From positions 310,001 through 374,000 of the forward strand of contig CACKAJ010000001.1 in assembly GCA_902598125.1 (NCBI GenBank): a stretch of DNA of 64,000 bases. The letters run 5' to 3'. A program made the translations under genes and the position numbers. The stretch is from an uncultured Pelagibacteraceae bacterium (lineage in GTDB: Bacteria; Pseudomonadota; Alphaproteobacteria; Pelagibacterales; Pelagibacteraceae). Position 1 is the first letter of the stretch, and each line of letters starts with the position of its first letter. Shown in pieces: positions 11,209 through 54,948 of this stretch. The notes beneath the pieces are model-generated. The model worked only from the letters and a program-made list of their open reading frames with translations. It was not told the DNA's origin and did not search any database.

Positions 11209-11274
11209 TTAATTATTTAGCTGATTCGTAAAAATAATTTAAGACTCTTTTAAGTTGTATGTGGATATTTAAAA

Positions 11275-52271: not shown

Positions 52272-52937
52272 ATGCCAAAAAAGAAAAAAGTAAAAAAATC
52301 GAAAAAAGTAAAAAAAACGAAATTACAAAACAAGATAAAACCATCAGCTAAAACTTTAGATAAAAAAAACACTTTATCAGGAGTAGAAGAAAAGCCTGAA
52401 ATAAAAAAAGTTAAAAAACAACCCACAGAAAAACGAATTTATAATTTAAAAGATTTCGTAGTTTATCCTAAGCATGGGGTAGGTAAAATAACTGCTATTG
52501 AAAAAGCAAAAATTGGAGAAATAGACATTCAATTTTATAAAATATTAGTTGAGAAAGAAAAACTAACTTTAACAGTTCCTATAAATCAACAGTCAAAGTT
52601 AAGACCGATAGCCTCAATTAATCAAATAAATAAATGTATATCTATATTAAAAACAAAACCAAAAATAAAAAGAACAATGTGGAGCAGGCGTGCTCAAGAA
52701 TATGATCAAAAAATTAATTCTGGTAAAATATATGAGCTAGCTGAGGTAGTAAAAGATTTAAATAAGAATACCGATATCATTGCAGATCAATCCTATTCTG
52801 AAAGACAGTTGTTTGAGAAAGCTTATGAGCGATTAAAATCAGAGTTTGAAGCAGTTCTACAAGTAAGTCCTGACGATGTTCAAAAAAAAATGGATAAAGC
52901 TTTAGGAAGAACGAATATTTCTGAAAACACTGAATAA
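52272..52937 (+). CDS. carD: CarD-family transcription factor with Lys-rich N-terminal tail
   Basis: A 221-residue CarD/TRCF-domain protein. The CarD domain starts near residue 56 (IYNLKDFVVYPKHGVGKI) and binds RNA polymerase beta to stabilise open complexes at promoters; the helical C-terminal region (about 120-215) contacts DNA. Residues 1-55 are a highly basic, disordered tail rich in Lys, longer than the short N-terminus I recall for alphaproteobacterial CarD (not searched). A bidirectional terminator at 52940-52974 follows and the convergent polybasic peptide gene lies just beyond. Confidence 0.9.
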   Translation: MPKKKKVKKSKKVKKTKLQNKIKPSAKTLDKKNTLSGVEEKPEIKKVKKQPTEKRIYNLKDFVVYPKHGVGKITAIEKAKIGEIDIQFYKILVEKEKLTLTVPINQQSKLRPIASINQINKCISILKTKPKIKRTMWSRRAQEYDQKINSGKIYELAEVVKDLNKNTDIIADQSYSERQLFEKAYERLKSEFEAVLQVSPDDVQKKMDKALGRTNISENTE

Positions 52938-52939
52938 AA

Positions 52940-52974
52940 AAACGCCCTTCTTAAAATATTTAAAAAGGGCGTTT
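52940..52974. terminator. Bidirectional terminator between carD and the polybasic peptide gene
   Basis: AAACGCCCTT (52940-52949) pairs perfectly with AAGGGCGTTT (52965-52974) around a 15-base loop. On the minus strand the stem is followed by seven Ts, the stronger polarity, which ends the tiny minus-strand gene; on the plus strand GTTTAGTT follows, adequate for carD. Confidence 0.8.
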
Positions 52975-52988
52975 AGTTAAAGAGAAAA

Positions 52989-53063
52989 CTATCTTCTTTT
53001 TCTTCTTCTTTTTTTAGCTTTCTTTTTAGTTTTCTTTTTAGCTTTTTTTCTTCTTTTAGCCAT
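52989..53063 (-). CDS. 24-residue polybasic peptide
   Basis: A complete 25-codon frame: ATG at 53061-53063, TAG at 52989-52991. Nineteen of 24 residues are Lys or Arg; the rest are the initiating Met, three Ala and one Thr, giving KKAKKKTKKKAKK in the middle, reminiscent of histone-H1-like tails. A good Shine-Dalgarno sequence, AAGGGAG, lies about seven bases before the ATG, a perfect TTGACA is at 53136-53141, and a U-rich terminator follows. These make it a likely gene despite its size. Function unknown: nucleic-acid or ribosome binding are inferences. Confidence 0.72.
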   Translation of the reverse strand: MAKRRKKAKKKTKKKAKKRRRKRR

Positions 53064-53113
53064 CTTTTCTCCCTTGTTATTAAACAAATCTTAATGATTC
53101 GTTCGTTAATTAA

Positions 53114-53141
53114 ACATTAGTTATTAAAAGATTCATGTCAA
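53114..53141 (-). promoter_or_regulatory. Possible promoter for the polybasic peptide gene
   Basis: A perfect minus-strand TTGACA (53136-53141) is followed 16 bases later by TAATGT (53114-53119), a poor -10. It lies in a 208-base AT-rich spacer (53064-53271) that otherwise shows only A/T runs and no other gene. Confidence 0.4.
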
Positions 53142-53271
53142 ACATAAATTAATTTACAAAATTGATTCAAAATTTAAATTTTTAATTATTTTTTTAAATT
53201 TTTATTAATTTTAAAAAAAGTTAACAATATCAATGTTTTTTTAAGCAAAAAATTAACTTTTAATTGTAAAT

Positions 53272-54948
53272 TTAATAAAGTTTTTCTAATTGTTGTTTAT
53301 AATTTTTAATTATTTCTTTTCTTTTTAACTTTAAAGTTGGTGTTAACATTCCGTTTTCAATTGTAAATTCTTTATGAATTAAAACAAATTTTTTAATTTT
53401 TTCTATTAAAGTTAAACTTTTATTTGTATTTTCAATTATAAGTTTAATTTTTTCTTCATTAATTTCTTTTTCAGTAACTAATATTGCAACTAAGTAATTT
53501 TTTTTGTCTCCATAAACAAAAGATTGTTTAATATTTTCATTTAAACATAAAATATTTTCAATTTTACTTGGTGAAATGTTGTCACCTCCTAAATTGACTA
53601 TAATATCTTTTTTTCTATCTGTTATTTTTAAATAATTGTTTTGATCAAACTCACCAATGTCTCCGGTATATAACCATCCATCTTTAATTACTTTTTCAGT
53701 TTCTTCTTTTAGGTTCCAATAACCTAACATCACATTTTCACCCTTTATTAAGATTTCACCGTCCCCTGCTATTTTAACTTTATTTGTTCTAAATGGAGGA
53801 CCGACTGATTCGACTTTGACTAAATCTGGCAAATTACAGCTTACGACAGGAGAGGCCTCTGTAAGACCATAACCTTGCAAAGTAGGTAATCCTATAGCAT
53901 TTAAAAATTCTCCAATATTTTGATCTAATGCTCCTCCACCAGAAACGAAGGCTTGAAGGTTTCCTCCAAATTGACCTCTAATTTTTTTTCTTACTAATTT
54001 TTCACATAAAAAATTTATAATTTTTTCACTTAAACTTAATTGTTCTTTTTTAAGTATTTTTTTTCCTAATTCTAAAGTTTGGTTAATTAATTTTCTTTTA
54101 AGTCCTTTTTGTTTTTCAAAATTCATGTTTATTTTAGTAAAAAGATTTTGATAAAACCTTGGAACAGCTGTCATAATAGTTGGCTTAGCAATACTCATAT
54201 TTGAAATTAATTTTTCAAGACTCTCTGCATAAAAAACTTTTGCGCCAACTATAATTTGTATAAATTGGACAGTATGTTCATAGGAATGTGATAAGGGTAA
54301 CCAAGTTAAAAATGTAGGATCTTTTTTTTTAGTTAAAGTTTCTAGTAACTCAACTGCTCCTTCGCAGTTTGATAAAATGCCTCCATGACTTAAAATAACT
54401 CCTTTAGGATTGCCTGATGTGCCTGAAGTATAAATGATACATGCAGGCATATTTCTTTTTAACTTATTATTAATCTCTTTCTTAAAATTTTCTTCATCTA
54501 GGATATTTTGAATTAATAAACTGTCAGTATCTATCTCTTCAAAAGATATTATTTTTTGCTCGTTTATATTTATATGATTTTTAATCTTTTTAAATTGATC
54601 ATTATTTGAAACTATAATTAAAGATGGCTTACAATCATTTAAAATATATTCATAATCATTTGAAGAATATGTTGTAAAAATTGGAACTGATATTCCTCCT
54701 GCATTCATCACAGCAAGATCTGCAATTAACCAATACGGTCTATTTTCAGATAATATTAAACAACGATCACCTTCTTGAATTAATGATTTTATCTTTGATG
54801 AAAGTTTCAATACTCTCTCTTTGATATCACCCCAGCTATAAGTTGGTTTTCCTGGTTTTAACCATTTTAAAAAAGATCTGTTAGGATCAACTTCATCACA
54901 CTTTTTAAAGTACAATTCTACAAGACTATTAAGTTTATCTATTTCCAT
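53272..54948 (-). CDS. fadD: Long-chain fatty acid-CoA ligase (AMP-forming)
   Basis: A 558-residue ANL-superfamily enzyme. ACIIYTSGTSGNPKGVILSHG (P-loop-like motif, about 170-190), LQGYGLTEASPV, and GWLYTGDIGEFDQN with the hinge region near ITDRKKDIIVNLGGDNISP identify a FadD/FACL-like acyl-CoA synthetase; C-terminal adenylation lysine is in a shortened tail (LTPTLKLKRKEI). It activates fatty acids for degradation or lipid synthesis. Its ATG is only four bases after the 3' CCA of tRNA-Leu on the same strand. Confidence 0.9.
   Translation of the reverse strand: MEIDKLNSLVELYFKKCDEVDPNRSFLKWLKPGKPTYSWGDIKERVLKLSSKIKSLIQEGDRCLILSENRPYWLIADLAVMNAGGISVPIFTTYSSNDYEYILNDCKPSLIIVSNNDQFKKIKNHININEQKIISFEEIDTDSLLIQNILDEENFKKEINNKLKRNMPACIIYTSGTSGNPKGVILSHGGILSNCEGAVELLETLTKKKDPTFLTWLPLSHSYEHTVQFIQIIVGAKVFYAESLEKLISNMSIAKPTIMTAVPRFYQNLFTKINMNFEKQKGLKRKLINQTLELGKKILKKEQLSLSEKIINFLCEKLVRKKIRGQFGGNLQAFVSGGGALDQNIGEFLNAIGLPTLQGYGLTEASPVVSCNLPDLVKVESVGPPFRTNKVKIAGDGEILIKGENVMLGYWNLKEETEKVIKDGWLYTGDIGEFDQNNYLKITDRKKDIIVNLGGDNISPSKIENILCLNENIKQSFVYGDKKNYLVAILVTEKEINEEKIKLIIENTNKSLTLIEKIKKFVLIHKEFTIENGMLTPTLKLKRKEIIKNYKQQLEKLY

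Follow-up and report, generated by a model that had tools for sequence, protein, structure and literature searches.

The C-terminal tails of histone H1 and the bacterial H1-like proteins (chlamydial Hc1 and Hc2, AlgP-like tails) are chains of Lys, Ala, Pro, Thr, and Arg. Protamines are very short and mostly basic, and their sequence drifts while their charge remains constant. The eukaryotic ribosomal protein eL41 has 25 residues, mostly Lys and Arg, and also holds Trp, Leu, and Met; ribosomal proteins, in turn, repress their own mRNA. Here, we describe a locus of the SAR11 bacteria whose product shares the H1-like trait, being a chain of Lys, Ala, Pro, Thr, and Arg with hardly any acidic residue. 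We know of no histone-H1-tail-like or protamine-like protein that is shorter.

A small polycation gene facing carD

The window, a stretch of 64,000 nucleotides from an uncultured Pelagibacteraceae bacterium, contains a minus-strand open reading frame (ORF) that encodes 24 residues, 12 of them Lys and 7 Arg, together with three Ala and one Thr. A first-pass annotation made from the sequence had reported this frame and its 19 basic residues, and translation bore it out, although its title, which described the peptide as consisting only of Lys and Arg, was too strong; its text had the Ala and Thr right. Such frames are rare: the window holds a single ATG-initiated ORF of 15–60 residues with at least 60% Lys/Arg, compared with none in 100 dinucleotide shuffles. 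The features of the locus are the following:

52272–52937, plus strand: carD (RID and CarD_C domains), with a Lys-rich N-terminal tail; convergent neighbor
52940–52974, minus strand: intrinsic terminator of the small gene, a 16-pair stem and a T-run
52989–53063, minus strand: gene of the 24-residue polycation MAKRRKKAKKKTKKKAKKRRRKRR, stop codon TAG (from translation, conservation beside carD, and the codon test)
53069–53075, minus strand: Shine–Dalgarno sequence AAGGGAG, 5 bases before the ATG
53082–53104, minus strand: predicted leader hairpin, a 9-pair stem with a 5-base loop, about 3 bases past the predicted RNA start
53095–53101, minus strand: CGAATCA box, TGATTCG on the plus strand (fitting YGAKTCG), with a GANTC site at 53096
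53114–53119, minus strand: weak −10 candidate TAATGT, 16 bases after TTGACA, 3 of 6 positions as in the consensus (by eye)
53130–53134, minus strand: second GANTC site, at 34 bp from the box and one base behind TTGACA; missing in some relatives
53136–53141, minus strand: −35 candidate TTGACA, conserved in upstream regions
53164–53168, minus strand: third GANTC site, 34 bp further upstream; not kept in all relatives
53272–54948, minus strand: AMP-binding gene (acyl-CoA synthetase/FadD-like), upstream neighbor, kept in the family

The signals around the frame largely agreed with the earlier description. The AAGGGAG at 53075–53069 is present, at a distance of 5 rather than 7 bases from the ATG, and both the perfect TTGACA further upstream (53141–53136) and the minus-strand terminator after the stop (stem at 52974–52940, followed by the T-run) were found; a scan detected one terminator, compared with a mean of 0.1 in shuffled sequences. 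The overall claim of a small protein gene equipped with a ribosome-binding site, a promoter candidate, and a terminator is strongly supported by the conservation described below.

With 25 codons including the stop, the gene falls short of the 30 codons that gene finders usually require and could therefore escape annotation. It could likewise escape tryptic proteomics, since trypsin would cleave such a peptide into pieces only a few residues long. The locus thus marks a likely blind spot of both gene finders and trypsin-based proteomics. Pfam and NCBIfam scans of four forms of the peptide, with E-values up to 10, recovered no histone-like or other true family, bearing in mind that profile models handle low-complexity chains poorly and that such chains may be filtered. 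The HU/IHF family (PF00216) was not matched by the peptide, and a hit of PF25424 to an 85-residue form (E 6.9) was a chance match. No chain in the PDB was matched by sequence at E-values up to 10, a weak search given a query of only 24 residues. Among the literature matches listed, the titles and abstract openings from the Pelagibacter/SAR11 field contained no report of the small gene, and carD goes unmentioned in the main text of the survey of P. ubique structured RNAs published in 2009 (PMC2704228).

Conservation across the family, the order, and the class

Searching with the peptide itself proved to be of limited use. The 24-residue query matched 62 of 151 genomes of the genus, a figure that reflects the limit of the search, as genomes that were missed (for example, G033 and G105) do carry the gene (at loci L033 and L040). 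Similarly, the exact pattern GGGAG-MAKRRK was found in 103 of 197 family genomes and missed other starts (MPKKR, MATKR, MAKKR), and the 85-residue form matched 0 of 106 genomes of the class in a search that is uninformative for such a query. Loci were therefore chosen by their place beside carD, which was matched in 162 of 197 family genomes.

We read the DNA behind 90 of the family carD loci, the window's own included (30 and 60 loci). A convergent Lys/Arg-rich ORF was present in 89 of them, ending 46–70 bases from the carD stop; in the remaining locus (L058), the contig ends after 82 bases. The small ORF was also found in all of 15 further family loci (25 rows, of which 10 were repeats). The peptide has 19–50 residues across the family and 21–24 in the window's genus.

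The first-pass annotation had made its proposal depend on the start codon, frame, and ribosome-binding site persisting among relatives. Among 103 distinct family loci, the start codon is ATG in 102 and GTG in one, and GGAG occurs at most 25 bases upstream in 102 (GGGAG in 98), as it does in all 19 sister-family loci. The frame is open in 103 of 104 distinct family loci, the exception being L113 (genome G155), in which it is thrown off in an A-run, leaving only a 14-codon piece. Sequencing error, slippage, and real loss are all possible there.

In the sister family (f115), 19 of 21 loci hold, at the equivalent slot, a protein of 40–91 residues of the type MEELKVIFAKARKKAKKKAAPKKKRKAAKRKPAKKK..., and in the other two (L190 and L193) the contig ends. 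This protein carries histone-H1-like AAPKKKK repeats, which strengthens the likeness to H1-like tails proposed at first pass. The 36 Glu and 2 Asp found in its 19 rows are accounted for by the starts MEEL and MEDL. The CarD proteins of the sister family are 44–48% identical to that of the window.

In other orders of the class, we found no clear counterpart at the 28 carD loci that we read, among 97 genomes with a match. Weak, short GTG or TTG frames near the slot in L132 (12 residues), L145 (21 residues), and L148 (18 residues) have mixed residues and were taken as chance, as were looser frames more than 500 bases off in L129, L131, L136, L147, and L149. A search of phage DNA returned no match, and one viral match (L208) was an unrelated phage protein. 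The small gene thus appears, as far as sampled, to be a trait of the order.

Some assemblies deserve separate mention. Nine of 53 genus genomes (G150, G005, G134, G061, G065, G108, G010, G287, and G016), one of them 98% complete, yielded no match to carD and no hit to the pattern of the small gene. Two contigs (G109:C20 and G177:C6) hold two inverted copies of the locus and are perhaps mirrored misassemblies, and several other contigs terminate beside the small gene.

The other neighbor of the small gene is not the same in the two families. Among loci with more than 600 bases read (those with 600 or fewer downstream were left out, reducing 122 to 117), the FadD-like gene lies upstream in 98 of 98 family loci and in none of 19 from the sister family. 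There, the longest listed frame in that place looked, by eye, photolyase-like in 4 of 19 loci and RpoH-like in 15. As carD, the small gene, its promoter, and its box all stay in place although the upstream neighbor differs, the small gene seems to have its own promoter.

The tail of CarD, which the first-pass annotation had correctly described as Lys-rich, is N-terminal, and it is held in the 11 carD loci that we read from both families, with a length of about 50 to more than 100 residues. Long, Lys-rich, H1-like tails of this kind can be seen at 52272–52450 of the window and in L121, L150, L154, L158, L162, and L172–L176. Since both convergent neighbors carry Lys-rich chains, CarD and the small peptide share a polycation chemistry.

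SAR11 bacteria count among the most numerous cells of the ocean, and most of their spare DNA has been lost. Despite these streamlined genomes, they keep the small gene, with its upstream box unchanged, between families, and this one locus supplies natural polycations of 19 to 91 residues.

Codon use indicates selection on the protein

To separate coding from non-coding conservation, we relied on codon counts across 103 distinct family loci (114 rows minus L113 and 10 repeats), comprising 2454 codons after the start. These include 961 AAA, 313 AAG, and 655 AGA codons, and not a single GAA, GAG, or AGG. The encoded peptides consist after the start only of Lys, Arg, Ala, Thr, Gly, Pro, and Ser, plus one Val, which is the sole hydrophobic residue in the 2454 codons; acidic residues are absent. 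The other two frames of the identical DNA hold 549 and 293 GAA/GAG codons. As such a placement of G would serve nothing in a non-coding purine-rich RNA, the counts favor coding. In addition, among the 85 of 103 rows that begin with MAKRR, and are hence selected for Arg, AGA is exchanged for CGT or CGA at Arg4 in 17 rows and for CGT at Arg5 in 15. A pairwise test of A/G differences by codon position within the genus, muddied by indels, found positions 2 and 3 alike (0.105 and 0.109). Since this test alone gave no support, the coding case rests on the codon counts.

Along a FastTree tree of the neighboring FadD-like protein (98 loci), the length of the peptide changes at least 43 times and its sequence at least 71 times, with the frame kept open. 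Drift of sequence and length at a maintained charge is a mark of a disordered polycation. From these comparisons, we regard it as near certain that the ORF is a real, translated gene, and it is presumably expressed in the cell.

A conserved box and hairpin upstream of the gene

We compared 119 upstream regions (101 from the family and 18 from the sister family), of which 118 are distinct, after leaving out those shorter than 110 bases (L043, L171, and L186, reducing 122 to 119). TTGAC is present in all 119 and TTGACA in 111. Further downstream, all 119 contain CGAATC, extended to CGAATCA in 118 and to CGAATCG in L104. The box, the leader hairpin, and a possible link to GcrA and CcrM were all absent from the first-pass annotation. 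In every region, 32–36 bases separate TTGACN from the box (L185 has two TTGAC, with box gaps of 4 and 32, of which the farther was counted), while the distance from box to ATG varies from 36 to 63. This fixed spacing, set against the varying distance to the ATG, ties the box to the promoter rather than to the start codon.

If TTGACA serves as −35 and TAATGT as −10, transcription is predicted to begin near 53107, which would put the start of the box at about +7. A consensus promoter scan listed two sites (2.3 expected by chance), neither using the TTGACA at 53141–53136, which it skips because no nearby −10 hexamer reaches its cut-off.

The box forms the 5′ arm of the predicted leader hairpin. 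Of 93 leaders retained after removing those too short or identical to one already counted, 92 fold with z below −1.5 relative to mononucleotide shuffles (mean −3.56), and the hairpin is predicted in every lineage sampled. Outside the box, its pairs are of several types with both sides changed, as compared without a tree. In 10 of the 93 leaders (L110–L112, L115, L118–L121, L172, and L173), the stem is shifted such that CGA is unpaired, yet CGA is unchanged, which suggests that pairing is not the only constraint on the box. The predicted mRNA of the window's small gene folds at z −4.89, and Rfam provided only sub-threshold matches (best E 0.032).

The combination of TTGAC and box occurs once in the gene's own genome. 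In the window, the heptamer CGAATCA/TGATTCG occurs 4 times, with 4.7 occurrences expected, and thus shows no enrichment. Another CGAATCA, at 11222–11228, lies by eye between a tRNA-like stretch and a sequence resembling a small stable RNA. We also observed CCC or CTCC stretches before GGGAG that could pair with the ribosome-binding site and hide it; these occur in the sister family and some genera (L174–L194, L115–L121, L172, and L173), and none was seen in the window's genus.

Possible control by GcrA and CcrM

On its other strand, the box reads TGATTCG in 118 of 119 regions and CGATTCG in one (L104), all of which fit YGAKTCG. This is the extended motif at which GcrA was reported to activate methylated promoters (Haakonsen et al. 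2015, as described in an excerpt of PMC7987155). Both regulators are encoded in the gene's own genome: GcrA matches PF07750 with E 3.5e-39 and NF050816 with 6e-35, the latter under the curated cut-off; CcrM, the GANTC methylase, here with a RAMA domain, matches PF01555 with E 3.4e-66 and NF050803 with 4e-170 over nearly its full length, yet under the curated cut-off. Across the order, 53 of 58 genomes hold GcrA, and the control for the PF07750 search gave matches in Caulobacter and Sulfolobus, 2 of its 14 genomes. In line with this, excerpts of earlier work report a CcrM in SAR11 (PMC3973325) and genome-wide GANTC methylation in Pelagibacter, where 42 sites lacked methylation in every sample and two thirds of the unmethylated sites were intergenic (PMC9516812).

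Three GANTC sites spaced by 34 bp (53096, 53130, and 53164) are present here in the gene's own genome. GANTC is under-represented in the window (110 found, 186 expected), a rarity that is not specific, since CTNAG is likewise low (121 versus 191). The fixed YGAKTCG/GANTC box suggests that transcription of the small gene may be sensitive to CcrM methylation and GcrA.

Several observations temper this suggestion. In one timing class of GANTC promoters in Caulobacter, according to part of a published account, the site lies between −10 and −35 (PMC4287350). The invariant box does not lie there; it follows the predicted RNA start, 32–36 bases past TTGACN. The site at 53130 does sit between −10 and −35, and it is not kept in all relatives. 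Within excerpts of PMC7987155, very few P. ubique orthologues, among those ranked, have a high probability of GcrA control, and some disagreement of the data with the Caulobacter model is reported. A TTGAC–box pair that occurs once in the gene's own genome would fit gene-specific control at least as well as GcrA/CcrM, and the heptamer shows no enrichment in the window. CGAATCA/TGATTCG was also not found upstream of ccrM or gcrA in that genome.

Two related loci are also of note. Upstream of ccrM at L197:2250–2330, there are two GANTC sites (2293 and 2311, plus strand of the locus) and a TTGACC, possibly reflecting methylation feedback on ccrM; an earlier survey describes a motif that is conserved between the genes rnhB1 and a DNA methylase (Meyer et al. 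2009, PMC2704228). At G242:C3:19889–20367, the match to gcrA is split into two parts, the second of which contains stops. The box provides a concrete GANTC site for probing the role of CcrM and GcrA in an organism in which, according to an excerpt of one study, no ctrA was found (PMC2877005).

What the polycation may do

Peptides built from Lys, Arg, Ala, Thr, Pro, and Gly are unlikely to fold or catalyze, and by its composition this one would rather bind polyanions. The H1-tail-like repeats of the long form point to DNA, which is probably the nucleic acid that the polycation coats; RNA and ribosomes are possible targets as well, and composition alone does not separate them from DNA. We lean, by a modest measure, towards a disordered polycation resembling H1 tails and protamines that coats nucleic acid and is expressed from its own, methylation-sensitive promoter. 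The small gene would be transcribed from that promoter into a short mRNA bounded by the 5′ hairpin and the 3′ terminator, and a good ribosome-binding site would drive translation of the short disordered chain. It would act by charge, neutralizing and bridging phosphate backbones, above all those of DNA, alongside the two HU-type proteins whose genes lie elsewhere in its own genome. Its output would follow replication through CcrM methylation and GcrA at the YGAKTCG/GANTC box. The narrower proposal of a dedicated mini-protamine of the order, whose promoter reads the methylation of the chromosome through this fixed box, we put forward only tentatively. If true, the packing of DNA would be coupled to replication in genomes that rank among the smallest of free-living cells.

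The polycation could alternatively be a partner of the ribosome or of RNA, like eL41, with the leader hairpin serving as its own regulatory site at which the protein represses its mRNA. We consider this unlikely, yet several points favor it: size and charge fit, the hairpin is predicted in all lineages sampled even where CGA is unpaired, and the single occurrence of box plus TTGAC in the genome is what gene-specific autoregulation would be expected to leave. However, the family has one hydrophobic residue (Val) in 2454, the sister form, built of a long AAPKKKK repeat, does not resemble a ribosomal protein, and no PDB chain was matched by the short, and hence weak, query.

Another explanation, which we find improbable, is that the peptide is a partner of CarD, working or competing with its Lys-rich tail at promoters. 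The convergent pair persists in two families though the other neighbor differs, both proteins carry Lys-rich chains, and 9 of 53 genus genomes lack both genes at once. Yet, as carD served to locate the loci, the pairing is in part an effect of sampling; convergent order and separate promoters imply no shared function; and the joint absence may represent an assembly gap.

That the conserved entity is an RNA with an incidental ORF, be it a small RNA or a transcript antisense to carD, is very improbable: the strong leader hairpin and terminator and the mRNA folding at z −4.89 would suit it, but it is contradicted by the codon test, with its frame-specific codon use and length changes that keep the frame open, and the terminator precedes carD. 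Control of a downstream gene through translation of the ORF as a leader peptide is hardly credible, for although the peptide is short, has few residue types, and is followed closely by a terminator, the gene order contradicts it, with the next downstream gene, carD, on the opposite strand, and the sister form reaches 91 residues.

Comparison with known systems

Our preferred reading, a nucleic-acid-coating polycation, places the gene beside several described systems. It resembles the Caulobacter promoters controlled by GcrA and CcrM in having a YGAKTCG box with a GANTC site and in a genome that encodes both regulators, but the SAR11 box lies after the predicted start, within a predicted leader hairpin. 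With eL41, it shares a length of about 25 residues that are mostly Lys and Arg; unlike eL41, the SAR11 peptide family has no Trp, Leu, or Met after the start. The likeness to protamines lies in a very short, mostly basic chain whose sequence drifts at constant charge, although the SAR11 peptide is bacterial and richer in Lys. With H1 tails, Hc1, Hc2, and AlgP-like tails, it shares the chain of Lys, Ala, Pro, Thr, and Arg, extended in the sister form by AAPKKKK repeats, while differing in its 24 residues, the lack of a profile match, its fixed place beside carD, and the conserved upstream box with a GANTC site. What is new here, compared with these systems, is an H1-tail-like polycation of minimal size with a conserved promoter box.
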